From Solemya velum gill symbiont (GTDB lineage Bacteria > Pseudomonadota > Gammaproteobacteria > Chromatiales > Chromatiaceae), in the NCBI RefSeq assembly GCF_000787395.1, contig NZ_JRAA01000001.1, positions 310,001 through 374,000 of the forward strand: a stretch of 64,000 bases of DNA, in the 5' to 3' direction. The notes beneath the pieces were generated by a model. That model ran no database searches, was not told the origin of the DNA, and worked only from the letters and a program-made list of their open reading frames with translations. A program made the translations under genes and the position numbers. Every line of letters starts with the position of its first letter. Position 1 is the stretch's first letter. Positions 5,051 to 52,945 of the stretch are shown here, piece after piece.

Positions 5051-5091
5051 ACCGCTGCGACGTATCAGTATCTCTATAGATGCTATACAAC

Positions 5092-5131
5092 AAAAAAAGA
5101 GTACGCCCGAAACGGCTTGCTCTTTTTTTAT
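5092..5131 (+). terminator. Rho-independent terminator after csp
   Basis: The A-rich arm AAAAAAAGAG pairs with CTCTTTTTTT around an inner GCC/GGC pair and a CGAAAC-type loop, giving a long hairpin that ends in a T run. The A/T symmetry would let it work in both directions. Confidence 0.85.
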
Positions 5132-5381
5132 TCCCCCAGGAAAAAGTTAAGTTACTCAAATTGATTAATACCCGGCCATCCAATTGATGTTACTGTGTAC
5201 TGTACACATACCATCTCTGGCAACTTCCTTGCCAGGCAGCAGGATTTCAAATGGTTCGTAGGAGGAACTGTTTGCCCCTTGTTGATCATTCCGTTGTAAC
5301 GCGTTATCAGGCATGCCTGGCTGGACCGGGCTGTAGTGAATGGCGCGACGATTTTTTCTCATTAATTTAGGGAGCAAGATC

Positions 5382-5510
5382 ATGGGTAGAGAACAAAAAG
5401 GAAATAAAGAGGCCAAGAAGAAACCGGCCATGACGCTGCAAGAGAAACGCGCAGCGAAGAAGTCAAAGAAGGAATCCTCAAATTTATTTAAGAATGACCG
5501 GGCGCAGTAA
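5382..5510 (+). CDS. Small lysine-rich protein, 42 residues
   Basis: The frame begins ATGGGTAGAGAACAAAAAGG, preceded at good distance by AGGGAG. The product is very basic: G-R-E-Q-K-G-N-K-E-A-K-K-K-P, then LQEKRAAKKSKKE and a short polar tail. Such K/E-rich proteins of about 40 residues recur in gammaproteobacteria as uncharacterised genes, and a nucleic-acid or ribosome-associated role would be a guess. It is too short for a usual ORF cut-off. The minus-strand frame across the same bases has no features of a gene. Confidence 0.6.
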   Translation: MGREQKGNKEAKKKPAMTLQEKRAAKKSKKESSNLFKNDRAQ

Positions 5511-5695
5511 GCCTTTTCCAGGCAGACAGGATTTATTCTCGTCTGCTCTGGTTATTGCATCAATATCGATTCCGCACGACTTGAATAGAGCCTGTTTTAC
5601 ATGGCTGCTCTAATCTCAAGTGAGTTGCGTTGCACCAATGAGCAGGACTCGGCATGCAGCCACGCCGACTTTGAACATACCTTCCAGGAGATATA

Positions 5696-5977
5696 ATGAT
5701 TTCATTCCCCAGGCTTGAGTGTTGGAATCCCACTACCAACGTGGCGACCGTTGCGGCCGATGTAGACAAAAATCGTGTGCTTTGCCGGATCTCGCTGAAG
5801 ATATTGAGAGATCAATTCGGTGCCTCAGAGAAGAAGCCCATGCAATTCGTTGTACAGCATCGAACGGAAATACAAGACGCTGCAAGAAAGCTTATAGAGA
5901 ACAGTGTCTTTGAAAAGGATGGCTCTGTTCTAATTCGCGCTTGCGACTTCACAGATTCAAAGCCGGGCCAGACATAG
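5696..5977 (+). CDS. DUF1488-like small protein
   Basis: 93 residues. AGGAGAT lies just before the ATG. The layout resembles DUF1488 proteins: an N-terminal FPRLECWNP segment, a short strand with V-L-C-R-I-S, then FGASEKKPMQFVVQHRTEIQ and an A-R-K-L-I-E-N helix. The family is a small conserved gammaproteobacterial family without a known role. The last residues after about 80 are weakly conserved in type. The similarity is from memory of the pattern, so the family call is moderate. It stands alone between the 42-residue gene and the aminotransferase. Confidence 0.6.
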   Translation: MISFPRLECWNPTTNVATVAADVDKNRVLCRISLKILRDQFGASEKKPMQFVVQHRTEIQDAARKLIENSVFEKDGSVLIRACDFTDSKPGQT

Positions 5978-6063
5978 ACAAGTTGCCGATAAGATTGACC
6001 TGCTCCCTCCGCCAAATACCGGGTACACGACACCGGATCCGATAGTTCAAATCGTCTCATCTC

Positions 6064-7170
6064 ATGATAATCCCACGCATTGAGCTCTTTGAATGGCTCC
6101 AAAATAATCACGAACGCGCTCAGTACGTTCTGGCCTCAAGCAAAATGAAAGGCCTATCCAAACAAGAATATGACGAACTGGTGCAATACAATCTTGAACC
6201 AGAACTTGATCTTGGACGGGGCGACCCCCGTGGCGCTAACGAATTCAAACAAATTCTGATGGAGATTTATGATTGCGGGATGGAGAACATCGTTTCTGCC
6301 TCAGGTGGCACCCAGGCCAATTTTCTCGTATTTCTGTCGACACTGAAAAAAAAAGATGAATTCATCGTAGAGCAGCCCGGTTACCAACCGATGTGGCTAA
6401 CACCAAAGATGATGGGTGCTCGAAAAATTCTGTGGCCCAGGCGATTTGAAGATGGATTTCGTCTGGATATTGACGCGCTGGAAGAACTGATCACCGACAG
6501 GACGAAGCTCATCGTGCTGACCAATCCGAATAATCCAACCGGGGTGGTGGCAGACAGGGAATCTGAAATCAGAAAGATCGCCGAGATCGCAAAGGCTAAA
6601 GGCACTTATGTTCTGATCGATGAGATTTTCCTCGATGGTGCGGACAAACAACAGGTATCTGCCTATGGACTGCCTAACGTCATCATTACCAGCAGTATGA
6701 CCAAGGTTTACGGTCTGGGAGGCCAGAGGACGGGCTGGATAATCGCACTAAAAATAATTGCTGCCAAGTGTCAGCATGCCAAAGCTCATACCAATGGTTC
6801 TTCTTCCTATGTCGGGGAATTGATGAATGCCCACGCTCTGCGCAAAGCCAGAAAACTTCTTGTGCAAAGATTTCATAAGCTTTCAACTTCCAACCTCCTG
6901 GTGCTTGATGAATGGATGGAGGCCAATCAGGATATCGTGGAATGGGTGCGGCCTCACGGCGGGATAATGTGCTTCCCGAAATACAGAGTCAATATGTCTT
7001 CAATAGAACTTTGCAATATGTTGCTTGATGATCACGGCGTTATGGTAAATCCCGGAGAATATTTTAATATGGATGGCCATATCAGGCTTGGCTATGCCTG
7101 CTCAGAAGATGTGTTAAGAAACGGCCTCAATGCACTGGGTAATGGTTTGAAGGCGTTGGGTTCAGGTTAA
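6064..7170 (+). CDS. PLP-dependent aminotransferase, fold type I (class I/II)
   Basis: 368 residues with the expected landmarks in order: SASGGTQANFLVF (cofactor phosphate site), NPNNPTG (155-160), LIDEIFLD with Asp186 for the pyridine nitrogen, and SSMTKVYGLGGQRTGW with Lys214 as the Schiff-base lysine. It should transfer an amino group between an amino acid and an oxo substrate in the cytoplasm. The substrate is not evident. It lies 560 bases before a nucleotidyltransferase and a CDP-alcohol transferase on the same strand, so it might supply an amino head group such as an aminoalkyl phosphonate or phosphate. The start codon has no strong ribosome site; an alternative start cannot be excluded. 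Confidence 0.9.
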   Translation: MIIPRIELFEWLQNNHERAQYVLASSKMKGLSKQEYDELVQYNLEPELDLGRGDPRGANEFKQILMEIYDCGMENIVSASGGTQANFLVFLSTLKKKDEFIVEQPGYQPMWLTPKMMGARKILWPRRFEDGFRLDIDALEELITDRTKLIVLTNPNNPTGVVADRESEIRKIAEIAKAKGTYVLIDEIFLDGADKQQVSAYGLPNVIITSSMTKVYGLGGQRTGWIIALKIIAAKCQHAKAHTNGSSSYVGELMNAHALRKARKLLVQRFHKLSTSNLLVLDEWMEANQDIVEWVRPHGGIMCFPKYRVNMSSIELCNMLLDDHGVMVNPGEYFNMDGHIRLGYACSEDVLRNGLNALGNGLKALGSG

Positions 7171-7736
7171 CAGAGGTTGCCCGGGAACTCAGGGCGAGTT
7201 CTGTCAGACACACAAATGCTACTGCATACCAGTGCTGTTATGCACTTTTATGCCAATTTTTGAACTCACCGACATCCATGCCCCGTTTACTGTATGATGA
7301 ACATGCTTTCCTTTAGCTCTCCTTTGGCCGTTACTGGGCCCATCTTTAGCTTTCCTTTAGCAAACCTTAAGCTCTTGTCTGGTTTTTCAGATGATCTATA
7401 CCTTTCAAGAAATCGATTAAGCCGTCTTAGAACAATGGCTCGCCATTTGTGAGTCAGCTGAGTATTCGGAACTCAGCAGATACGATTATTTCGAATACTC
7501 TGTATGCGAATAACTGCATTCTGAATGTCGTTGTCCCCACTTTGTGTTCGTGATGCAAAACGACCCATGGATACAAGCGATTAGCTGATATCAATATCAG
7601 GTATAGCAATAGATTTTCTATTCTATCGGACTCTTCTCCATGGCAAGTCAGTTATTCGTTCTGACAGCTTGTCTGCCTGACTTATCCAGATGAGCAGCAT
7701 CAATACTCGACAATAATATTCTTAGGAGAAATGACT
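7171..7736. other. 566-base non-coding region with repeats
   Basis: No credible frame on either strand. It holds two near-copies of TTTAGCTYTCCTTT (about 7313-7326 and 7346-7359), a 9-bp inverted repeat (7460-7468 with 7492-7500) and, at its right edge, the ribosome site of the nucleotidyltransferase gene. A promoter or structured leader for that gene is plausible but unproven. Confidence 0.5.
7460..7500. repeat. Inverted repeat GAGTATTCG...CGAATACTC
   Basis: Perfect 9-bp arms with a 23-base spacer, in an otherwise empty intergenic region about 240 bases before the nucleotidyltransferase gene. It could be an operator or an RNA stem. There is no T run after it. Confidence 0.5.
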
Positions 7737-31007: not shown

Positions 31008-32570
31008 ATGTTCACGATTACACCTGCCCAGATCGGCAGCATCAAAGACGATACGCTGTCAGGACTGACTGTTGCACTGGCACTTGTGCCCGAGGCTGTC
31101 GCGTTCGCCTTTGTCGCCCATGTTTCTCCCGAAGTTGGCCTGTGGGCCGCAGTTATCGTCGGTTTTCTGGCCGCGGCCATCGGTGGTCGTCCCGGAATGA
31201 TCTCGGGTGCAACCGGTGCGCTGGCTGTGATCATGGCGGGTCTTGTGATCCAGCACGGAGTGGACTACCTGTTTCCCGCAGTTATCCTGATGGGACTGAT
31301 CCAGATCTCAGTGGGGGTACTCAGGCTCGGCAAGTACATGCGCATTGTGCCTTACCCGGTGATGCTCGGATTTGTTAACGGTCTTGCAGTGGTGATTTTT
31401 CTTGCCCAGCTACAGCAGTTTTTCGATATCGACCCGGTGACAGGGGAGAAAACGCTTCTCGAAACGCCCATATTGATGGCAACACTTGGTGTTGTCCTGA
31501 TGACGATGGCGATCATCCATTTTCTGCCAAAATTCACCATGGCAGTGCCTGCTGCACTGGTGGCGATTGTGAGCACCACGCTGCTGACACTGTTTGCGAC
31601 ACAGGTCGGTTTTGACTTTGGCATCAAAACTGTTGGTGATGTCGCGCCTATCGGTGGCCTGCCAACACTGCCGGACTTCAGCCAGACGATGGGCAGCTGG
31701 GATCAGATTGTTGATACATTCATGATTATATTTCCATACTCTTTTGCATTTGCTGCCATTGGCCTGGTTGAGTCACTGCTGACACTGGGTGTTATCGACG
31801 AAATGACAGGTACACGTGGATGCGGTAACAAGGAGTGTGTCGGCCAGGGTATTGCCAACATCGTCGCTGGTTCTGCCGGAACCATGGGTGGTTGCGCCAT
31901 GATCGGACAGAGCATGATCAACATTAACTCGGGCGGTTTCGGACGCCTCTCTGGCATCATGGCAGCAGTTTCACTGGCGCTTTTCATCCTGTTTGGTTCC
32001 TCCCTGATCGAGGTGATTCCGGTTGCCGCGCTGGTTGGTGTCATGTTCATCGTGGTACTCGCGACTTTTGAATGGTCGAGTTTCCGTATTCTCAGAAAAG
32101 TACCGAAACACGATGCTTTCGTTCTGATTGTGGTTTCTGTCATCACAGTTATAACTGACAACCTGGCGCTTGCTGTCGGGATCGGCGTGATTATCTCCGC
32201 ACTGGTCTTCTCCTGGACAAGTGCGATTCGTGTTGTGGCAGATATATCTGTCAATGAAGAGGGTGCCAAAATCTATGTAATCAACGGACCACTTTTTTTC
32301 GGTTCTGCCAAGGTGTTTTCTGATCTCTTCACCCCTGATGATGATCCTGACGAGGTAATTGTTGATTTCATCAACTCACGTGTTGTCGATCACTCAGCGG
32401 TTGAGGCGATCGACTCACTCGCGGAACGTTATACAAAACGCGGCAAGAATCTGCATCTGCGTCATCTCAGTGTTGACTGTACCAACCTGCTCAACAAGGC
32501 GGGGGACCTGGTTGAGGTCAACTACGAAGAGGATCCGAACTACAAGGTGGCCGACGACAAGCTTGCCTGA
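31008..32570 (+). CDS. SulP-family anion transporter with C-terminal STAS domain
   Basis: 520 residues. It has the SulP start (DTLSGLTVALALVPEAVAFA), GLWAAVIVGFLAAAIGGRPG followed by ISGATGA, and about 12-14 membrane helices. The cytoplasmic STAS domain spans about residues 415-510 (KIYVINGPLFFGSAKVF). SulP proteins carry sulfate, bicarbonate or related anions. The CGNKECVGQGIANI block is as in bacterial bicarbonate/sulfate members. The substrate is not decidable from sequence. No partner gene overlaps it. Confidence 0.92.
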   Translation: MFTITPAQIGSIKDDTLSGLTVALALVPEAVAFAFVAHVSPEVGLWAAVIVGFLAAAIGGRPGMISGATGALAVIMAGLVIQHGVDYLFPAVILMGLIQISVGVLRLGKYMRIVPYPVMLGFVNGLAVVIFLAQLQQFFDIDPVTGEKTLLETPILMATLGVVLMTMAIIHFLPKFTMAVPAALVAIVSTTLLTLFATQVGFDFGIKTVGDVAPIGGLPTLPDFSQTMGSWDQIVDTFMIIFPYSFAFAAIGLVESLLTLGVIDEMTGTRGCGNKECVGQGIANIVAGSAGTMGGCAMIGQSMININSGGFGRLSGIMAAVSLALFILFGSSLIEVIPVAALVGVMFIVVLATFEWSSFRILRKVPKHDAFVLIVVSVITVITDNLALAVGIGVIISALVFSWTSAIRVVADISVNEEGAKIYVINGPLFFGSAKVFSDLFTPDDDPDEVIVDFINSRVVDHSAVEAIDSLAERYTKRGKNLHLRHLSVDCTNLLNKAGDLVEVNYEEDPNYKVADDKLA

Positions 32571-44968: not shown

Positions 44969-45826
44969 ATGTTGGATAATTCGATCAATCACGATGTTGC
45001 AACGAAATTACGGGAAGTGGCGGATATTCTCGAACAGCAGGGCGCAAACCCGTTTCGTATTCGCGCTTATCGACGTGCTGCTGAAACTGTTACTCATCTT
45101 GAAGCGGATTTACCGGACCTGCTCGAGCAGGGTGGTATCGATGCCCTGATCGAACTTCCGAACATCGGTCGTGGTATTGCCACGGCGATTGCAGAAATTC
45201 TGGCTACTGGCCGTTGGGCACAGCTGGAACGGCTGCGCGGTTCACTGGATCCGGTGAAGCGATTGCAATCTGTTGCGGGTATCGGACCCAAGCTGGCGCA
45301 ACGCATACATGATGAGCTCCATATCGATACACTAGAGGGTCTGGAGCTCGCAGCACATGATGGACGCCTGGAAGAGTTGGAGGGTGTCGGAGTGAGACGT
45401 GCCACCTCAATCAGCGCAACGGTAGAGAATATGCTGGATCGTGTGCGCAGCAGCCGTCACAACCAGGATGAAAATGGCCCGTCAGTTGAAATGCTGCTCG
45501 ATGTTGATCGTGAATATCGCGAGAAGTCATCGGCAGGGGAACTGCCCACCATCGCCCCGCGGCGCTTTAATCCAAACGGTGAGGCCTGGTTGCCGATTCT
45601 GCATACTGAACGTAATGATTGGCACTTTACCGCTCTGTTTTCAAATACAGCCAGGGCGCATGAACTTGGGCATACTCATGACTGGGTGGTGATTTATCAT
45701 TACAATGATCACCAGGAAGAGGGTCAGCACACAGTGGTCACAGAGACGCACGGTGCTATGATTGGTCAACGTGTCGTGCGCGGACTCGAGATCGAGTGCC
45801 GCGCTCTTTGGGAGAATAATAATTGA
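44969..45826 (+). CDS. Helix-hairpin-helix protein with PolX-like N-terminus, no polymerase palm
   Basis: 285 residues. Residues 1-150 are the N-terminal DNA-binding part of PolX/Pol beta-type proteins: VADILEQQGANPFRIRAYRRA, then two hairpins in LIELPNIGRGIATAIAEI and LQSVAGIGPKLAQRIHDEL, plus LEGVGVRRATSIS. The nucleotidyl-transfer domain (Gly-Ser with Asp triad) is absent. Instead residues 190-285 are a different domain with WLPILHTERNDWHFTALFSN and THDWVVIYHY, unassigned. It probably binds structured or damaged DNA; enzymatic role unknown. Four-base overlap with sixA. Confidence 0.8.
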   Translation: MLDNSINHDVATKLREVADILEQQGANPFRIRAYRRAAETVTHLEADLPDLLEQGGIDALIELPNIGRGIATAIAEILATGRWAQLERLRGSLDPVKRLQSVAGIGPKLAQRIHDELHIDTLEGLELAAHDGRLEELEGVGVRRATSISATVENMLDRVRSSRHNQDENGPSVEMLLDVDREYREKSSAGELPTIAPRRFNPNGEAWLPILHTERNDWHFTALFSNTARAHELGHTHDWVVIYHYNDHQEEGQHTVVTETHGAMIGQRVVRGLEIECRALWENNN

Positions 45827-46284
45827 AGCTCTATCTTGCACAACATGGTGATGCGGTGGGGAAAATGATCGACCCCGAGCGCCCCCTGTCAGGAAAAGGG
45901 AAGGAAGATGTCAGTAAAATGGCTGATTTCCTCACCAAGGCTGGAGTACGCGTCGATCGTGTGATTCACAGTGGTAAATTGCGTGCACAGCAGACCGCCA
46001 GCATACTGGCCCGGTCTATTGCGCCAGGTGTCCCGGTTGAGACCAGTGGTTTCATCAATCCAAATGACGATCCGGCATCTTTTCACTGGGAAAGAGGTGG
46101 TCCGAAACAGGATATACTCGTTGTTGGCCACCTTCCCTTTATGGAAAAGCTGGTTGCTCACCTTGTTACAGGGGATATGGAGAGAGATATCACAGATTAC
46201 GACCCGGGCAGCGTCGTTTGTCTTGAGTATAGCCATGATAGTTGGCAGATAATCTGGATGTTGAATCCCGGGCTTCTCGCCTGA
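45823..46284 (+). CDS. sixA: SixA-type phosphohistidine phosphatase
   Basis: 153 residues, TTG start overlapping the previous stop (TTGA). The phosphate pocket motif is LAQHGDA (the usual R-H-G with Gln in place of Arg, a common SixA variant). The second His is in ILVVGHLPFMEKL. RPLSGKGKEDVSKMADFL is also typical. SixA removes phosphate from His in HPt proteins or in the nitrogen-PTS. It is 13 bases before the SpoIIE gene, so it may act in the same phospho-signalling set. Confidence 0.87.
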   Translation: MKLYLAQHGDAVGKMIDPERPLSGKGKEDVSKMADFLTKAGVRVDRVIHSGKLRAQQTASILARSIAPGVPVETSGFINPNDDPASFHWERGGPKQDILVVGHLPFMEKLVAHLVTGDMERDITDYDPGSVVCLEYSHDSWQIIWMLNPGLLA

Positions 46285-46297
46285 TTAGCCCGGAATC

Positions 46298-47989
46298 ATG
46301 GAAAAAGAACAAAAAGAACTTCTCGCTGACAAAATTGGCGGCCTCGGCCAGGCTCATATCGAAGTGCTGGCCGACATGGCGCAGAGCTTTGCCGAATCTC
46401 TCGACATTGACGATACCCTTCGTACCGCCCTCAGAAAAACCATGCAATACCTCGATGCAGAGGCAGGTTCTGTCTTCTTGCTGGTTGATAATGATGAGAT
46501 TCTTGAATGCCGCGCATCGGAAGGACCGGTTGATATCACCGGGCTGAGATTACCGGCAGGACAGGGCATTGTGGGGCAGACAGTACAGGAAAACGACACC
46601 CTGATCATTCGTGATGTCTCCAAAAGCAAGAGCTTTAACGTGGCAGTGGATGAGGATACAGGCTTTCAGACCCGTTCCATTCTTTGCGCTCCCCTGACGG
46701 TTCGTGGCGAACGCCTAGGTGCACTGGAACTGATCAACAAGCAGGGCAGCGATGGTCTGTTCAGTGACAGGGATCGCAGTTTTCTTAGTGCCCTGGCATC
46801 ATCTGCGGCCCTGGCGATGCTCAATGCTCGTATGGCTGCAGACCTGGTTGAACAGGAGAAGGTACGCAAGGAGCTGGAGATGGCACGCGAGATTCAGAAC
46901 TCCTTGTTACCGCCGATGCCACCACAAGATGCACCGATCCACGGCCTGAATATCCCTGCACGTGGAGTATCTGGTGATCTTTACCTGTTTTTCCCTCTTT
47001 CGAACGGGCGTCTCTTCTTTGCCCTGGGTGATGTTTCTGGAAAAGGGATACACGCGGCTCTCTTCATGGCCAAGACCGTCAGCCTGATTCGCGCGCTGGC
47101 AAAGCTGGAGCACAGCCCTGGAAAGCTCTTTGCCCGGCTCAATGATGAAATCAGAGAGACGGCCAGCCGTGGTATGTTCATCACCCTGGCTGCCGGTACC
47201 TTTGATCCGGCTAGCGGCAAGGTGTGCATGACCAATGCGGGTCATGAGCCCCCGCTGTTCCGAAACATCGACGGAGAGTATGTTGCCTATCCAGCAGATG
47301 CTCCGCCCCTCGGTATCCTTCCTGACCTGGTTTTTGAAGAAGTGGAGATCATGCTGGAGGGTGGGGCACTCTATCTTTTCACCGATGGAATGACTGAAGG
47401 CTTCGACAGTGAAGGCCAAGCACTGGGTGTAGCAGGGGTGAAGGCAGCTATTGAGCAACATCAGAATTTGAATCCACAGGCACGTATCCAGGCGATGGTG
47501 GAACCCCTGACAGATACAGATACGCAACTTCGTGATGACATAACCCTGCTGGTCGTTGAACATCAGCCCATACAGGTGCTGGCCAAGATAGAGGTTTCAG
47601 CATTGCCAACTAATCTCAAGGGACTGCGGGATGGCCTGCGCGAGGTGCTGGTCGAGAATGAAATCGACAAGGCCCTGGTGGAGAAGCTGGTCCTTGCGGT
47701 TGGAGAGGCTGTGATGAACGTGGTGCAACACGGCTTTGACGGAGGGGGAGCAGAGGGTAGAATTACCCTTGAGGTATGTAAAGAAAGGGACGGTCTGCTG
47801 TTTCGGTTGATGGATAACGCTCCGTCGATGGACCCTGCCGAGGTCACCCCTCGTGATCTTGATGACATCCGCCCCGGAGGTCTGGGTACCCACTTTATAC
47901 GGGAACTGATGGACAGCGTTGAATTCATGCCACCACCTGCTGGTAGTGGAAATCTGCTGGAAATGCGCAAGAGGATAGAACTGCTGTGA
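46298..47989 (+). CDS. GAF-SpoIIE phosphatase-HATPase protein (partner-switch regulator)
   Basis: 563 residues in three blocks. Residues ~30-175 are a GAF sensor (AEAGSVFLLVDNDEILE to GALELINKQ). A helical linker (EQEKVRKELEMAREIQNSLLP) leads to a PP2C/SpoIIE phosphatase (~195-420) with metal ligands in GDVSGKGIHAALF, LYLFTDGMTEGFD and LRDDITLLVV. Residues ~430-563 are an anti-sigma-kinase-like HATPase (LAVGEAVMNVVQHGF, FRLMDNAPSMDP, RPGGLGTHFIRELMDSVEF). It could thus both phosphorylate and dephosphorylate a STAS protein. The STAS gene overlaps its stop by four bases, and the Mla genes follow. Confidence 0.92.
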   Translation: MEKEQKELLADKIGGLGQAHIEVLADMAQSFAESLDIDDTLRTALRKTMQYLDAEAGSVFLLVDNDEILECRASEGPVDITGLRLPAGQGIVGQTVQENDTLIIRDVSKSKSFNVAVDEDTGFQTRSILCAPLTVRGERLGALELINKQGSDGLFSDRDRSFLSALASSAALAMLNARMAADLVEQEKVRKELEMAREIQNSLLPPMPPQDAPIHGLNIPARGVSGDLYLFFPLSNGRLFFALGDVSGKGIHAALFMAKTVSLIRALAKLEHSPGKLFARLNDEIRETASRGMFITLAAGTFDPASGKVCMTNAGHEPPLFRNIDGEYVAYPADAPPLGILPDLVFEEVEIMLEGGALYLFTDGMTEGFDSEGQALGVAGVKAAIEQHQNLNPQARIQAMVEPLTDTDTQLRDDITLLVVEHQPIQVLAKIEVSALPTNLKGLRDGLREVLVENEIDKALVEKLVLAVGEAVMNVVQHGFDGGGAEGRITLEVCKERDGLLFRLMDNAPSMDPAEVTPRDLDDIRPGGLGTHFIRELMDSVEFMPPPAGSGNLLEMRKRIELL

Positions 47990-48312
47990 AATGTGAAATT
48001 AGCGAGCAAGAAGGATTTCAGGTCGTCGCCTTGGGAGGAGACGTGGATCTCGCCAGTTCCCCAGAAGCGCGTGATGCCATTCTTGGCGGTCTCGCCAAGA
48101 GCAATGTTCTGGTCGATCTGTCCAATGTCGAATATATCGACAGTTCCGGTGTGGCAAGCCTGGTTGAAGGATACCAGTCAGCCAAGGATAAAGGGCGTAG
48201 TTTTGGATTGATTGGCGTCAGCGAGGCTGCATTGATGGTCCTACAGTTGGCCCGTCTGGACAAGGTTTTTTCTATTTACACGAGCGTTCAAGACGCCGTA
48301 GATCAAGGCTAA
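47986..48312 (+). CDS. STAS-domain anti-sigma-factor antagonist or MlaB-like protein
   Basis: 108 residues, GTG start in the previous stop (GTGA). Full STAS fold: VVALGGDVDLASSPEARDA, LVDLSNVEYIDSSGVASLV with the phosphorylatable Ser53/Ser54, and GLIGVSEAALMVLQLARLD. Context permits two readings: the target of the phosphatase/kinase before it, and the MlaB-like STAS subunit of the MlaEF transporter after it. MlaB in E. coli is a STAS protein bound to MlaF. Both could be true at once. Confidence 0.88.
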   Translation: MKCEISEQEGFQVVALGGDVDLASSPEARDAILGGLAKSNVLVDLSNVEYIDSSGVASLVEGYQSAKDKGRSFGLIGVSEAALMVLQLARLDKVFSIYTSVQDAVDQG

Positions 48313-48322
48313 CGGCCACAGC

Positions 48323-49111
48323 ATGCTCACGTTTCTGGAAGGCTTGGGCAGACGCACTGTACGCGGTATTGAAGAGTTGGGCTATCATGCGGCCCTGTTT
48401 GCCGAGAGCATCTACTGGTTGGTCTGGGGTAAACGCATAGGTCAACCGGTACGCAACAACCATGTGGTCAAGGAGATGGTGTCGGTGGGCATCAATGCGC
48501 TTCCGATCATAACAGTACTCTCTTTCAGTATTGGCATCATGCTGGCCATCCAGGGAATCCATACTCTCAAGACATTTGGTGCGCAGAACCAGGTCGTACT
48601 GGGTATAGCGCTTTCCGTCACACGTGAATTTGCACCCCTGATTGTGGCGATCCTTGTCGCCGGCCGTTCAGGCTCAGCCTTTGCCGCCCGCATCGGTACA
48701 ATGAAAATCTCTCAGGAACTGGATGCCCTCAAGGTAATGGGCATCAACCCGGTGCGTTACCTGCTCGCCCCGGCACTGCTCGCGATGCTGGTGATGGTTC
48801 CCACGGTGACTTTTTTTGCCGATCTCGTCGGGTTGCTGGGTGGCGGGCTCTACAGCGCCGCTGAGTTGGGAATAGGGCTGGATGTCTACTGGGAGCGCAC
48901 CCTTGATGTGCTTGATCCGGAAGACCTGATGCAGGGGTTGGTCAAGAGCGTCCTTTTTGCCGTGATGATTTCACTCATTAGTGCAGCCAATGGCTTTTCA
49001 GTCAGCGGGGGTGCCGAGGGTGTTGGACGAGCAACCACCCGGGCCGTGGTAATGTCTATTGCCGCCATCCTTGTGACCGATATGCTGTTTACCTACTTCA
49101 TGAATCAATAA
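48323..49111 (+). CDS. mlaE: MlaE-family ABC transporter permease
   Basis: 262 residues, about five to six helices. SIGIMLAIQGIHTLKTFGAQN, REFAPLIVAILVAGRSGSAFAAR and IGTMKISQELDALKVMG are conserved in MlaE/YrbE. It moves phospholipids in the inner membrane together with MlaF and the MCE protein. It follows the STAS gene by 10 bases. Confidence 0.94.
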   Translation: MLTFLEGLGRRTVRGIEELGYHAALFAESIYWLVWGKRIGQPVRNNHVVKEMVSVGINALPIITVLSFSIGIMLAIQGIHTLKTFGAQNQVVLGIALSVTREFAPLIVAILVAGRSGSAFAARIGTMKISQELDALKVMGINPVRYLLAPALLAMLVMVPTVTFFADLVGLLGGGLYSAAELGIGLDVYWERTLDVLDPEDLMQGLVKSVLFAVMISLISAANGFSVSGGAEGVGRATTRAVVMSIAAILVTDMLFTYFMNQ

Positions 49112-49116
49112 TCATC

Positions 49117-49914
49117 ATGGCTACTGACCCGGCAATAGAAATATCCAACCTGCACGTACGCTATGGCGACGTCGATATTCTGCAGGATGTCAATCTCACC
49201 GTGGAACGCGGTGAGGTGATGGTGATCATGGGAGGGTCGGGTTCTGGTAAGTCGACCTTTTTGCGCCAGCTGCTGGGGCTGGAAAAACTCTATGGCGGCT
49301 CAATCAAGTTGCTGGGTAAGGATATCACCACCCTTACGGGCCAAGAGATGTACCAGATGCGCAAGGAGATGGGGGTTGCCTTCCAGGGAGGGGCGCTGTT
49401 CAACTCTATGACCGTGGGTGAAAATGTCATGCTGCCGCTACGCGAACACGTGGATCTGAATGAGCAGACCATGCAGATCATGGCACGCATGAAGTTGGAA
49501 GTGGTCAACCTGGCAGGTTTCGAAAACTTGATGCCTGCTCAGCTTTCGGGCGGTATGATCAAGAGAGCGGCAGTAGCCAGGGCAATTATCATGGATCCCA
49601 AGCTGCTGTTTTTTGACGAGCCTTCGGCTGGTCTTGATCCGGTGGTATCGGCAGAACTCGATGACCTGATCCTGAAGCTGAAGACTGCCATGGGCATGAC
49701 CATCGTGGTGGTGACCCACGAACTCGAATCAGCCTTCAAGATCGCTGACCGAATTACATTTCTCGACCGCGGCAAACTGCTCATGAGTGGTACTGTTGAT
49801 GAGGTACGCAATTCGGATAACAAGCGTATCCAGAACCTGTTGAACAGGGTACCGGAAGAGGAACAGTTGGATGCCGATGAATACATCAGGCGCCTGGTGG
49901 GACGGGAAGAGTGA
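49117..49914 (+). CDS. mlaF: MlaF-type ABC transporter ATP-binding protein
   Basis: 265 residues with Walker A (IMGGSGSGKSTFLRQL), ABC signature (AQLSGGMIKRAAVARA) and Walker B (KLLFFDEPSAGLDP), and the VTHELESAFKIADR His loop. The C-terminal tail (NRVPEEEQLDADEYIRR) is extended, as in MlaF, where it contacts MlaB. Powers the MlaE permease. Confidence 0.94.
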   Translation: MATDPAIEISNLHVRYGDVDILQDVNLTVERGEVMVIMGGSGSGKSTFLRQLLGLEKLYGGSIKLLGKDITTLTGQEMYQMRKEMGVAFQGGALFNSMTVGENVMLPLREHVDLNEQTMQIMARMKLEVVNLAGFENLMPAQLSGGMIKRAAVARAIIMDPKLLFFDEPSAGLDPVVSAELDDLILKLKTAMGMTIVVVTHELESAFKIADRITFLDRGKLLMSGTVDEVRNSDNKRIQNLLNRVPEEEQLDADEYIRRLVGREE

Positions 49915-49957
49915 TTTTTTACTATGATTTAATAGCCGGAACGGAAACTCGATAACA

Positions 49958-50956
49958 ATGAAATACCAAAATGTCTCCTATATAACAGTCGGCTCCTTTG
50001 TACTGGTCATGCTCATCGGTCTCATGGCGATGCTGGTCATGATTACCGGTTATGTCTGGCATGCTGACTACTATACGGTTCGTTACGACAACGTAACGGG
50101 ACTATCCCGTGGAGCCCCGGTTACCTTCGAGGGATTTCAGATCGGGCGCGTTGCCAGCATTGTTCCGGAGCACGACGAAAAGAATACGACGACCTACAAG
50201 GTCAACCTGGAAATTGACAAGCAGAACGAGGTGAGTTGGCCTATACCGGATGACAGCAAGTTCCGACAGGTCTCATCTGGTTTGCTTTCCACCATAACGG
50301 TAGAAATCGAACGGGGTGAATCCAACACCGCGCTGGAACCCAATACAGAACTGGTAATCCAGGGAACCAGGAAGCGCGACCTGATGCAGACACTGAATAG
50401 CATCGGCGATGAAATCGAGAGCTATAAGGATGATTTTCGCAATATTATCAGCCGCCTTGATAACACCTCGCGCATTATCGATGAGGAGACGCCTGCGATT
50501 ATTGCCCTGGTCAAGAGCGGTAGTACCTCCCTGGACAAGGGCATTGTGGATATTGTCACTGACGTGAAAAGCATGTCTTCCGAATTGAAGGCGGGAATTC
50601 AGGATATGCGTGAAGTGGTTGGTACGGCCAACCGTGAATCGATTTCATCTTTTCTGGAAGCGATGGAAAAGGGCGGCCAGAACTTTGAGGAGCTTTCCAT
50701 GCAACTGCAAGGGAGTCGCGGCAAACTGGATTCGTTGCTGGAAGATTCACGCGACCTGGTCGGGAATAACAAAGGTGATGTCAACCGCACCATCAAGGAT
50801 TTGCAGGCGAGTATCAAGATAATCAGCCAGTCGATCGGTGCTATCACCCACAACCTCGATATAACCAGTCGCAACCTGGCGGAGTTCAGCCGCCAGATAC
50901 GGCAGAATCCTGGACACCTGATCCGTGGCACATCACCGCGTGATGCAGCTCGCTAA
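49958..50956 (+). CDS. mlaD: MCE-domain (MlaD-like) substrate-binding protein
   Basis: 332 residues: one N-terminal membrane helix (about 7-34), an MCE domain (~40-125; YTVRYDNVTGLSRGAPVTFE, FQIGRVASIVPE), then a long helical coil to the end (ISRLDNTSRII, LDSLLEDSRDLVGNN, FSRQIRQNPGHLIRG). E. coli MlaD is about 180 residues, so this is the longer type with an extended helical tail that may bridge the periplasm. No mlaC gene follows; a lipoprotein is next instead. Confidence 0.88.
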   Translation: MKYQNVSYITVGSFVLVMLIGLMAMLVMITGYVWHADYYTVRYDNVTGLSRGAPVTFEGFQIGRVASIVPEHDEKNTTTYKVNLEIDKQNEVSWPIPDDSKFRQVSSGLLSTITVEIERGESNTALEPNTELVIQGTRKRDLMQTLNSIGDEIESYKDDFRNIISRLDNTSRIIDEETPAIIALVKSGSTSLDKGIVDIVTDVKSMSSELKAGIQDMREVVGTANRESISSFLEAMEKGGQNFEELSMQLQGSRGKLDSLLEDSRDLVGNNKGDVNRTIKDLQASIKIISQSIGAITHNLDITSRNLAEFSRQIRQNPGHLIRGTSPRDAAR

Positions 50957-51013
50957 GGTAAACCGGACATGATTTCCGACACTCACCGCTTCGGATAATT
51001 ACAGGAGCCACCA

Positions 51014-51616
51014 ATGAAAAGAGTCTTGTTATATATGCTGCTGGCATCGTTTCTGACGGCCTGTGTTTCTTCACTCTCACCGGTACCGGAAGATCGCTAT
51101 TACCGTCTTTCCGAGGTGGCGGGAAAATCGTCGGGGAGGGCCTCTCTTGGCGGGGTACTGGCGATAGGTACGATCGAGAATGCCGGTGTTTACAATGAAC
51201 GGGCTATTCTCTACAGCGAGTCAACTGAACCTGCCAAATTGCAGCGTTACCACTATCACTTCTGGACCGACGCTCCACCACGCCTGATACAGGACCATCT
51301 TGCCGTCTACCTGCGCAAGGCTTCTGTAGCAAACACAGTCGTGAACGACAGGGGCGAGGTAGACTGGAGTCACTTGTTGTCAGGCAAGCTGCGCCGTTTT
51401 GAGCGCATCATGGATGGCAGTGGTTCGCGTGTTGCAGTGGATATGGAATTTCGGCTTATGCACAATCACAGCAGAAAAGCCTTGCTGGTCAAGGACTACG
51501 ACGTTGAGGTCGAGGTGGCGGGCGATACCGTCAACGATGCGGTTGAGGCTATGACAAGGGCGTTGGAGTCAATCTATGGGCAACTACTGGCTGATATCAG
51601 AAGAGTGGCGAGGTAG
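51014..51616 (+). CDS. ABC-type transport auxiliary lipoprotein (PqiC-like)
   Basis: 200 residues. A lipobox at LLASFLTAC places Cys17 as the lipidated residue. The domain (PEDRYYRLSE, then YYF-like GRYHYHFWTDAPPRLIQDHL region) matches the ABC_trans_aux/PqiC family of outer-membrane lipoproteins that work with MCE transporters. It completes the unit STAS-mlaE-mlaF-mlaD-lipoprotein. AGGAG precedes the ATG. Confidence 0.87.
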   Translation: MKRVLLYMLLASFLTACVSSLSPVPEDRYYRLSEVAGKSSGRASLGGVLAIGTIENAGVYNERAILYSESTEPAKLQRYHYHFWTDAPPRLIQDHLAVYLRKASVANTVVNDRGEVDWSHLLSGKLRRFERIMDGSGSRVAVDMEFRLMHNHSRKALLVKDYDVEVEVAGDTVNDAVEAMTRALESIYGQLLADIRRVAR

Positions 51617-51670: not shown

Positions 51671-52254
51671 TCAATGCCTGGCCTTGTCGCCCCATATCTC
51701 TTTCAGGCGTTGGTCTCGCCCACAACTGTAACGATAGAATTTATATCTGATCGGGTTGTTTTTGTAATAGTCCTGGTGATAACTCTCTTTTCCCTTGATG
51801 GGATAAAAAGTAGATGCATCCAGAATGGGTGTGACAACAGTTTTACCTGGAAATTGTGAAACGACTCTCTTTCTGGATGTTTCAGCCAGTGCGCGTTCGT
51901 TTTCATTGGCAACGAAAATTGCACTCAGGTAGCTATGTCCCTTGTCGCAAAACTGTCCTTTGGCATCGAAGGGGTCGATACTGACCCAGTAGTATTCCAA
52001 TAACTGTTCGTAGCTGACCTTGTCCGGATCATAGGTGATCTCAACTGCCTCATAATGTCCCGTATGATCACCTTCATAGGTTGGATTGTCCACTGTGCCC
52101 CGGTGAAGCCTGAGATGACATCGGTTACACCTTCCACTTTTTCAAAGTCAGACTCCATGCACCAGAAACAACCGCCCGCAAATGTTGCCTTATCGGCAAC
52201 AGCTACATTTGTACAACAGAGAAAACCTGCCACTAAAAGAATTACCTGTTTCAC
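51671..52254 (-). pseudogene. msrA: Periplasmic MsrA, broken by a single frameshift
   Basis: The N-terminal half (from 52254) has a signal peptide, then TFAGGCFWCMESDFEKVEG with the catalytic Cys, to SGFTG. The C-terminal half (to 51671) continues in another frame with VDNPTYEGDHTGHYEAVEI, DPFDAKGQFCDKGHSYLSAI and the last Cys in YRYSCGRDQ. The break is at a run of four G on the coding strand (plus 52098-52101). One more G would restore S-G-F-T-G-G-T-V-D-N-P. Hence a one-base deletion, either real or a sequence error. MsrA reduces methionine-S-sulfoxide. Divergent from msrB, so the two likely share regulation. Confidence 0.88.
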
Positions 52255-52318
52255 AATAAGACCTTTATCCGTACTGTTATTCGTATGAACTTACTGTAGC
52301 AGAAGAGCTCAAAATTAA

Positions 52319-52945
52319 ATGAGACATTTTTCAGGGATTTATATGGACGTCATGAAAGATCGAAATCTATTACTCATCTTCAGCCTGGCGATTGTGATTA
52401 TTTCCGGCTGGTATTTCACCGGCAGCCACACAGCAACAGCCGAAGATCAGAATACGAACCAGGCTCTGGAGAACCCTCTTGCCGGTACTGATTCGAAATG
52501 GAGTAAGCCCCCCGACGAAGTGTTAAAAAGCCGACTGACGCCCTTGCAGTACAAGGTGACACAGCACGAAGGTACGGAACGCCCATTCAATAATATCTAC
52601 TGGAATAACAGAGAAGAGGGTATCTACGTGGATATCGTCAGTGGTGAACCGCTATTTAGCTCCAGTGACAAGTTCAAGTCAGGAACCGGATGGCCAAGTT
52701 TTACACGTCCCCTGGTCAACAATCATGTCGTGGAAAAAACGGACAGGATGTGGGGAATGAGGCGAACCGAGGTACGCTCAAAATTTGGAGACTCCCATCT
52801 GGGTCACGTCTTTAATGACGGCCCGGATCCTACCGGTCTTCGATACTGTATTAACTCGGCTTCACTGCGATTTATACCCAAGAGTGCTTTAATCGATGAA
52901 GGCTATCCAGAATTTGTTTCCCTGTTTGAATCGATTGAGAAATGA
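52319..52945 (+). CDS. msrB: MsrB, exported methionine-R-sulfoxide reductase
   Basis: 208 residues. An N-terminal hydrophobic segment ([17 protein letters not shown]) exports or anchors it; start may be the third Met (MKDRNLL, 52352) rather than the first. The MsrB domain has [41 protein letters not shown] and RYCINSASL with the catalytic Cys. The zinc cysteine pairs of many MsrB are absent, as in the metal-free type. Acts on oxidised periplasmic proteins. Overlaps the DUF1223 gene by four bases. Confidence 0.93.

Follow-up and report, generated by a model that had tools for sequence, protein, structure and literature searches.

A STAS protein linked to a SpoIIE-type phosphatase and an RsbW-type kinase in an Mla/Pqi-like lipid-transporter operon: a proposed partner switch

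How the STAS protein MlaB of the E. coli Mla transporter is controlled has been stated to be open by Kolich et al. 2020, who proposed phosphorylation of its Thr52 and named neither a kinase nor a phosphatase (PMC7367683). No published kinase for MlaB was found in the literature, nor any paper joining SpoIIE and STAS with MlaE, or—with HDOD or partner switching—with an ABC transporter. The initial annotation of this DNA knew of no described phospho-switch on an Mla transporter; the possibility itself had already been put forward, with no enzyme named. The operon described here, located in the window—the whole stretch of 64,000 nucleotides from the Solemya velum gill symbiont that was analysed—raises the question whether a phosphatase-kinase protein, encoded in front of a STAS gene and an Mla-type transporter, controls that transporter. 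Since candidates for the kinase, the phosphatase and the substrate lie together in a single operon at this locus and in its relatives, the question of MlaB control becomes directly testable.

Based on the observed gene content, linkage, catalytic residues, missing mlaB, MlaF class and tail, and co-occurrence, it appears quite probable that the operon encodes an MCE-type (Mla/Pqi-hybrid) lipid ABC transporter, the MlaB-like STAS protein of which is under serine partner-switch control.

Gene content and layout of the operon

Table 1 Genes of the operon and its two upstream neighbours in the window; coordinates are those of the open reading frames, domain calls are from Pfam/NCBIfam
Feature	Position	Strand	Domain evidence
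HhH-domain gene (PolX N-terminal-like)	44969..45826	+	HHH_8/HHH_5 (Pfam)
sixA, phosphohistidine phosphatase	45823..46284	+	TIGR00249 98.9 bits, cut-off 74.5
GAF-SpoIIE-HATPase_c_2 protein, 563 aa	46298..47989	+	SpoIIE 153.5, HATPase_c_2 80.3, GAF 65.3 bits
STAS protein, 108 aa, GTG start	47986..48312	+	STAS 66.4 bits
mlaE-type permease, 262 aa, MlaE domain alone	48323..49111	+	PF02405 247.1 bits, cut-off 22.5
mlaF-type ATPase	49117..49914	+	PF00005; C-terminal tail ...DADEYIRRLVGREE
Long MCE/MlaD-type protein, 332 aa	49958..50956	+	PF02470 46.6 bits
PqiC-like outer-membrane lipoprotein (ABC_trans_aux)	51014..51616	+	PF03886 49.0 bits

The gene order, the single strand and the spacings given in the initial annotation were borne out by the coordinates and domain matches (Table 1). 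The HhH gene and sixA, as well as the GAF-SpoIIE-HATPase and STAS genes, overlap by 4 bases, and the gaps amount to 13 bases between sixA and the SpoIIE gene, 10 between the STAS gene and mlaE, 5 between mlaE and mlaF, 43 between mlaF and the MCE gene, and 57 between the latter and the lipoprotein gene. The MlaE permease, the MlaF ATPase and the MCE protein all lie within one operon (PF02405, PF00005, PF02470), and, as also claimed earlier, no sigma factor or separate anti-sigma gene adjoins the module among the window ORFs. Scans for promoters and terminators gave sites not above the shuffled-sequence count.

Concerning the first two genes, the HhH gene is probably co-transcribed with sixA, and both are indeed joined to the run here. 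In the annotation of the homologous loci, however, SixA stands beside none of the other 59, and the HhH gene was not found beside them either; the two, which only the annotation of the window shows next to the module, are therefore placed outside the conserved unit, and sixA was dropped as a switch component.

The transporter genes resemble those of the Mpc (Mla-Pqi chimeric) system of Brucella abortus, which likewise has MlaE and MlaF homologues, a long MlaD-like protein, a PqiC-like lipoprotein and no MlaC (PMC12436622). Of these features, the 332-aa MCE protein and the PF03886 lipoprotein are present in the window operon and MlaC is absent, as is a permease-fused STAS: in Mpc the STAS domain is fused to MpcE (PMC12436622), whereas here it forms a separate protein. 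The main text of the Mpc paper mentions no kinase or phosphorylation (PMC12436622).

The phosphatase-kinase chain and the STAS protein

The 563-aa chain comprises, according to Pfam, the domains GAF (residues 36-173), SpoIIE (236-422) and HATPase_c_2 (434-558), and is thus predicted to unite a sensor, a STAS phosphatase and a STAS kinase. The SpoIIE/PP2C-type phosphatase (PF07228) keeps its metal-binding Asp residues: in the homologue alignment D227, D245 and D363 are conserved in 54/54 sequences and D413/D414 in 53/54, whereas, as a point against the switch proposed below, the window protein has Leu230 at a position occupied by Asp in 52 of the 54. The RsbW/SpoIIAB-type GHKL kinase (PF13581) exhibits the N-box and G1/G2 motifs, with E470, N474, D506 and G527-G530 kept in all 59 homologues; the NCBIfam RsbW models match this domain, but below their equivalog cut-offs. 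The protein is the sole SpoIIE phosphatase and the sole clear RsbW-type kinase of the genome, the other HATPase_c_2 matches reading as ordinary sensor histidine kinases; free STAS proteins number two. A sigma or anti-sigma partner for the STAS protein, which the initial annotation had regarded as evidence against its reading, was looked for in the genome, and neither a SigB/F/G factor above the family cut-off nor another RsbW-type kinase was found.

The STAS protein contains the phosphorylatable Asp-Ser-Ser/Thr-Gly feature as Asp52-Ser53-Ser54-Gly55, both serines being present as previously indicated, and D21, D52, S53, S54 and G55 are found in 60/60 STAS homologues. It scores 67.2 with the model TIGR00377 (ant_ant_sig; cut-off 53.45) and 29.6 bits with the MlaB equivalog model NF033618, below the cut-off of 90, so that its likeness to MlaB lies in position and partner, and it falls outside that equivalog. 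Structure comparison places its model (pLDDT 96) nearest to RsbV and SpoIIAA, among them chains whose structures were determined together with the cognate kinases (Z 16-17, versus 12.4 for MlaB).

Ser53 aligns with Thr52 of E. coli MlaB and with residue 59 of TM1442. It should be pointed out here that conservation of Ser53 alone proves nothing, since Ser/Thr is common at the equivalent position in MlaB without a linked kinase, both in the alignment and according to PMC7367683. In E. coli MlaB, T52E weakens the binding of MlaF, and T52A still holds MlaF but is non-functional (PMC7367683); the residue may therefore be important independently of any phosphate.

Linkage and co-occurrence across genomes

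Relatives of the locus were found in genome contigs by alignment of the STAS protein, a single-protein scan with the SpoIIE chain having given none; tblastn against plasmids returned distant SpoIIE phosphatases only (<60% identity). The linkage, the absence of which in relatives the initial annotation would have counted as refutation, holds across about 43 genera within the sampled class and also outside that class; in one case the phosphatase gene lies downstream of mlaC. The spread is patchy, covering 58 of the 369 class genomes, and in the one congener sampled no SpoIIE match reached E<=1e-40. Of 60 homologous loci, drawn from many families, about 54 show the succession phosphatase, kinase, STAS, mlaE/mlaF, which is more than chance would give; among the 60, the kinase is upstream of STAS in 59, SpoIIE upstream in 52, mlaE downstream in 51 and mlaF downstream in 48. 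The succession is also seen in 53 of 61 further named loci (kinase 61/61, phosphatase 58/61, Mla 53/61). The sensor on the phosphatase is either GAF or HDOD, and the kinase is fused or separate.

Concerning MlaF, the tail of the window protein carries Tyr256 and Leu260, the counterpart of the handshake tail of E. coli MlaF (Y261, L265, L266), the Tyr-x3-Leu of which grips MlaB (PMC7367683). The pattern [YF]x3L is present in 67/67 MlaF proteins of the module-linked class, forming one clade in the tree, and absent from MlaF paired with STAS-fused MlaE. Over the 369 genomes, this MlaF class and the STAS protein occur together in 56 and are both missing from 307, with 6 discordant cases (2 + 4; Fisher 8e-59), the MlaF class being without such a STAS in two genomes, which counts against the reading proposed below. 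In MlaC-type operons that carry the module, mlaC is not followed by an mlaB. Four genomes possess mlaF-E-D-C without mlaB, their MlaF belonging to the module-linked class, and three others possess mlaE-D-A-C without mlaF or mlaB, the lone mlaF adjoining the STAS module elsewhere. From the missing mlaB, the lone mlaF beside STAS, and the clade and co-occurrence of the MlaF class, it appears that the STAS protein occupies the place of MlaB. Another mlaB, which the initial annotation would have held against its reading if it bound MlaF, does exist in the genome, but it is part of a second canonical operon, a complete mlaFEDCB, whose MlaF belongs to a different clade.

Comparative genomics thus strongly supports the earlier proposal that the STAS protein is both an MlaB-type transporter subunit and a predicted kinase/phosphatase target at Ser53; that it would bind MlaF is suggested by gene context and the MlaF tail.

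Proposed switch, known systems and rival readings

The window operon shares with E. coli MlaFEDB a STAS partner of MlaF, an interface Ser/Thr (Thr52 corresponding to Ser53), the Tyr-x3-Leu tail and the MlaE/F/D core (PMC7367683). E. coli MlaB is, however, without a known kinase or phosphatase, whereas the window STAS is linked to both, is RsbV/SpoIIAA-like in sequence and fold, is encoded by the first transporter-side gene behind its kinase, and goes with an MlaF of a separate clade. With the RsbU/RsbW/RsbV and SpoIIE/SpoIIAB/SpoIIAA switches of Bacillus it has in common the SpoIIE-type phosphatase, the HATPase_c_2 kinase and a STAS with Asp-Ser-Ser/Thr-Gly; in Bacillus the kinase holds a sigma factor, which is the output, whereas here no sigma partner is found and the transporter ATPase is proposed to take the output place. 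One-chain kinase and phosphatase acting on a stand-alone STAS, as proposed for the window, occur in SypE/SypA of Vibrio fischeri, for which no sigma factor is known. SypA influences biofilm formation, the mechanism being described as unknown in the abstract, which mentions no link to Mla (PMC4517449, PMC10120452).

That these genes travel together in many bacteria suggests a lipid pump that may be switchable by phosphorylation. It is fairly likely that the sensor-driven SpoIIE phosphatase and the kinase toggle STAS on and off MlaF, so that the switch acts on the ABC transporter directly, without an intervening transcription factor, and many proteobacteria have a post-translational valve on the movement of lipids between the two membranes. 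The RsbW-type kinase domain would phosphorylate Ser53, in the middle of the face by which MlaB holds MlaF; phospho-STAS would lose its hold on MlaF, the MlaF dimer would not be kept on MlaE, and transport would drop. The SpoIIE domain, driven by GAF (HDOD in many relatives), would strip the phosphate, and dephosphorylated STAS would bind MlaF, clasped by its tail, and let the transporter run, the kinase domain and MlaF competing for one STAS face. Binding, phosphorylation, polarity, signal and lipid cargo are all predictions of this scheme. If true, partner switching would extend from transcription control to the direct control of a membrane transporter, and the cell could quickly adjust the lipid balance of its outer membrane.

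The usual targets of partner switches are sigma factors or regulators (PMC8256260), and in some loci kinase and STAS have no adjoining mla genes, many of these loci lying beside FHA and PP2C genes; the module could thus control something else, such as a regulator or these signalling genes, and be merely co-transcribed with the transporter. This is considered unlikely, since most no-mla loci share their FHA/PP2C neighbours with full operons, which fits mla gene loss from one ancestral locus, and the two no-mla genomes examined keep an mlaB-less MlaF of the module-linked class elsewhere; moreover, that class and STAS co-occur across the 369 genomes, the lone mlaF stays with STAS when mlaE moves, mlaB is missing, and no sigma-B/F/G partner scores above cut-off. 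Anti-anti-sigma-like proteins act by titration, and FHA, PP2C and Ser-Thr kinase genes adjoin many loci, as might be expected if the flow were reversed, with the transporter state setting how much free STAS reaches the kinase and phosphatase and lipid flux being reported to another output. Such a reversal is very improbable: no conserved separate output protein was found in HDOD-type loci, the phosphatase has its own sensor domain, and the kinase is without a conserved second partner gene.

The STAS protein might also be an MlaB subunit, the kinase and phosphatase of which serve the assembly or turnover of MlaF instead of a signal-driven switch; MlaB does stabilise E. coli MlaF (PMC7367683), and the GAF and HDOD parts are without a known signal. 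This is held to be quite improbable, because GAF and HDOD replace one another as the phosphatase's sensor in an otherwise constant set of phosphatase, kinase and STAS, as expected for a signal input to the proposed partner switch.

Gene content and linkage of the module

The gene set and the spacings proposed in the initial annotation for the stretch 44969-51616 were confirmed, each of the named domains exceeding its Pfam cut-off. The STAS protein scores 29.6 bits with the NCBIfam equivalog model of MlaB, i.e. under its cut-off of 90.

Genes of the window operon, and examples of FHA/PP2C neighbours in other loci (L numbers, annotated flanks)
Feature	Position	Strand	Basis
HhH gene	44969-45826	+	ORF
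sixA	45823-46284	+	NCBIfam over cut-off
GAF-SpoIIE-HATPase_c_2 protein, 563 aa	46298-47989	+	Pfam domains over cut-off
STAS protein, 108 aa	47986-48312	+	Pfam; NCBIfam ant_ant_sig 67.2 (cut-off 53.45)
mlaE	48323-49111	+	Pfam over cut-off
mlaF	49117-49914	+	Pfam over cut-off
MCE protein, 332 aa	49958-50956	+	Pfam over cut-off
PqiC-like lipoprotein	51014-51616	+	Pfam over cut-off
FHA/PP2C genes, L082	6422-8240
FHA/PP2C genes, L085	4759-6324
FHA/PP2C genes, L094	6836-8439
FHA/PP2C genes, L272 (with a Ser/Thr protein kinase gene)	5061-7500
FHA/PP2C genes, L273	8087-9677

A profile of five STAS proteins matched (E<=1e-24) in 58 of the 369 sampled genomes of the class, covering 43 genera, with one match per genome. 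The 60 annotated loci exhibit a fixed gene order—SpoIIE phosphatase, kinase and STAS, then mlaE, mlaF and MCE—and close with either the PqiC-like lipoprotein or an mlaC-type end. Upstream of STAS, the kinase is present in 59 loci and SpoIIE in 52; downstream, mlaE occurs in 51 and mlaF in 48. One or the other adjoins STAS in 54 loci, and one of the remaining six (L092) stops at a contig end. Concerning the 61 further loci from named genomes, with record titles including Thiohalobacter, Thiogranum, Chromatiaceae, Rhodospirillales and Magnetovibrio, the kinase occurs in all, SpoIIE in 58 and Mla genes in 53; the order recurs in the survey of mlaE/mlaF linkage that the initial annotation had called for. 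The module with Mla genes is also found outside the sampled class, once complete (L299) and once with the 5' end lost at a contig border (L300). Its presence is patchy, the single sampled congener being devoid of it.

The sensor domain varies between loci (GAF or HDOD, by Pfam), and the kinase is either fused to the phosphatase or separate. In one class member (L303, 6006-10630), the order is kinase-STAS-mlaF-E-D-C-SpoIIE, the phosphatase being at the far end of an operon of the MlaC type, and neither GAF nor HDOD was matched. Neither chance nor mere neighbourhood readily explains why phosphatase, kinase, STAS and transporter stay together while sensors and fusions vary.

It should be mentioned that a short second HDOD gene (~300 aa) lies directly 5' of the HDOD-SpoIIE gene in several loci of the Thiohalobacter/Thiogranum type (L066, L070, L128, L144, L147 and L149). 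Two contigs carrying the module (L124, L130), which stand among uncultured gammaproteobacterial sequences, are titled as a Klebsiella pneumoniae MAG, probably wrongly.

The STAS protein as a probable substitute for MlaB

The STAS protein most likely takes the place of MlaB in the module operons. No mlaB-like frame was found 3' of mlaC in MlaC-type module operons where the sequence extends far enough. Three genomes (G338, with a single MlaE, G055 and G202) have mlaE-D-A-C without mlaF or mlaB, their lone mlaF adjoining SpoIIE-kinase-STAS at another locus; this separation of mlaF, which stays solely next to the STAS module, from mlaE-D-A-C is seen in L089, L091 and L106, with L260-L262. An MsrA-like gene also adjoins the orphan mlaF in L089 and L091, as genes similar to the methionine sulfoxide reductases MsrA (minus strand) and MsrB (plus strand) lie 3' of the window operon (51671-52945). 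Four genomes with the module and no adjoining transporter (G375, G152, G076, G216) possess elsewhere an mlaF-E-D-C operon without mlaB, its MlaF being of the module class; in G375 (85% complete), STAS_2 is matched elsewhere only by a frame of 588 aa.

Across the 369 genomes, this MlaF class and the STAS co-occur in 56, with STAS only in 2, MlaF only in 4 and neither in 307, the Fisher value of 8e-59 overstating the certainty because genomes are not independent. Among the six discordant genomes, two are cut by contig ends (G044, G247), one contains masked bases and only part of the STAS (G103) and one also misses the SpoIIE gene at the locus (G346), which leaves G099 and G267 as the only apparently genuine exceptions. 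In the tree, the class forms one clade (support 95/95), separate from MlaF of mlaB operons including that of E. coli (100/100), while MlaF of operons with STAS-fused MlaE also falls outside it. The C-terminal Tyr/Phe-x3-Leu tail, the counterpart of the tail with which E. coli MlaF clasps MlaB (Tyr261, Leu265, Leu266), is present in 67/67 MlaF of the class and missing in all four partners of the STAS-fused MlaE (L264, L267, L269, L276; ~380 aa with N-terminal STAS), so it seems to accompany STAS subunits that are not fused. The suggested role of an MlaB-like subunit is favoured by the lack of mlaB, the co-occurrence, and the MlaF clade with its tail.

In the symbiont's own genome (2.70 Mb, 99.7% complete), STAS was matched four times—in the STAS protein of the module, in one MlaB and in two long frames of 667 and 530 aa, the one inside the window (31008-32570) reading as a SulP-type transporter. 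The MlaB is encoded in a complete mlaFEDCB operon, located on the contig of the window (L031, 6053-9047); it shows Asn-Ser-Ala-Ala instead of Asp-Ser/Thr-x-Gly, and the tail of the accompanying MlaF (EVDFLGIDE) departs from that of E. coli. The GAF-SpoIIE-HATPase_c_2 protein is the sole SpoIIE phosphatase and the sole clear HATPase_c_2 kinase (83.4 bits; runner-up 27.9), the remaining matches reading as ordinary sensor histidine kinases, so that the free STAS candidate substrates are the window STAS and MlaB only. Genome-wide, no sigma-B/F/G factor exceeded the family cut-off; a sigma partner for this STAS would have spoken against the initial annotation.

Active-site residues and a possible switch on MlaF

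The alignment revealed STAS Asp21, Asp52, Ser53, Ser54 and Gly55 in 60/60 sequences, the kinase N-box Glu470 and Asn474, Asp506 and Gly527-Gly530 in 59/59, and phosphatase Asp227, Asp245 and Asp363 in 54/54, with Asp413/Asp414 in 53/54. At phosphatase residue 230, the window protein (SGDLYLFF) differs from the Asp of 52/54 homologues (SGDFYDFF). Ser53 is aligned with E. coli MlaB Thr52 and with residue 59 of TM1442, the phosphorylation site of the latter. The predicted STAS structure (pLDDT 96) has its best matches (Z 16-17) among anti-sigma antagonists such as RsbV and SpoIIAA, several of whose structures contain the cognate kinase as well; the match to P. aeruginosa MlaB has Z 12.4.

In E. 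coli, Thr52 lies in the middle of the interface that MlaB forms with MlaF, T52E weakens binding, and MlaF is not retained on the complex without MlaB (PMC7367683). Combined with the genes present at the locus, these data make a Ser53 phospho-switch on MlaF the simplest model: the kinase domain would phosphorylate Ser53, MlaF would release the phosphorylated STAS and transport would stop, until the GAF-driven phosphatase reversed it, the same STAS face being contested by kinase and MlaF. Polarity, signal and lipid cargo are inferences. Conservation of Ser53 alone is weak evidence, since T52A of E. coli MlaB retains binding and loses function (PMC7367683), and MlaB proteins that have no kinase linked to them also commonly carry Ser or Thr at this position; the linked kinase and phosphatase are stronger evidence. 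Overall, the partner-switch module is conserved, accompanies a distinct MlaF class and most likely controls the MlaB-like subunit of the latter.

Within the open-licence literature, no paper was found that assigns MlaB a kinase or phosphatase or describes Mla together with a SpoIIE module—which is not proof of novelty—and the statement that a phospho-switch on an Mla transporter has not been described stands on that scope. Kolich et al. posed the regulation of active MlaB as an open question (PMC7367683). The closest transporter is Brucella Mpc, with STAS fused to MpcE and a PqiC-like MpcA (PMC12436622), and the closest signalling pair is SypE/SypA of Vibrio fischeri (PMC4517449, PMC10120452).

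Loci without mla genes and FHA/PP2C neighbours

The GAF-type loci without mla genes keep the FHA and PP2C genes flanking full operons in other genomes and therefore look like one ancestral locus after transporter loss. The HDOD-type L067 and L078, with a TPR-like gene 3' of STAS such as L025 has 3' of its full operon, appear to have undergone a similar loss. FHA and PP2C-phosphatase genes beside the module or a type-II mla operon were seen in 36 of ~139 loci scanned, from many lineages, and may possibly represent a second phospho-signalling layer.
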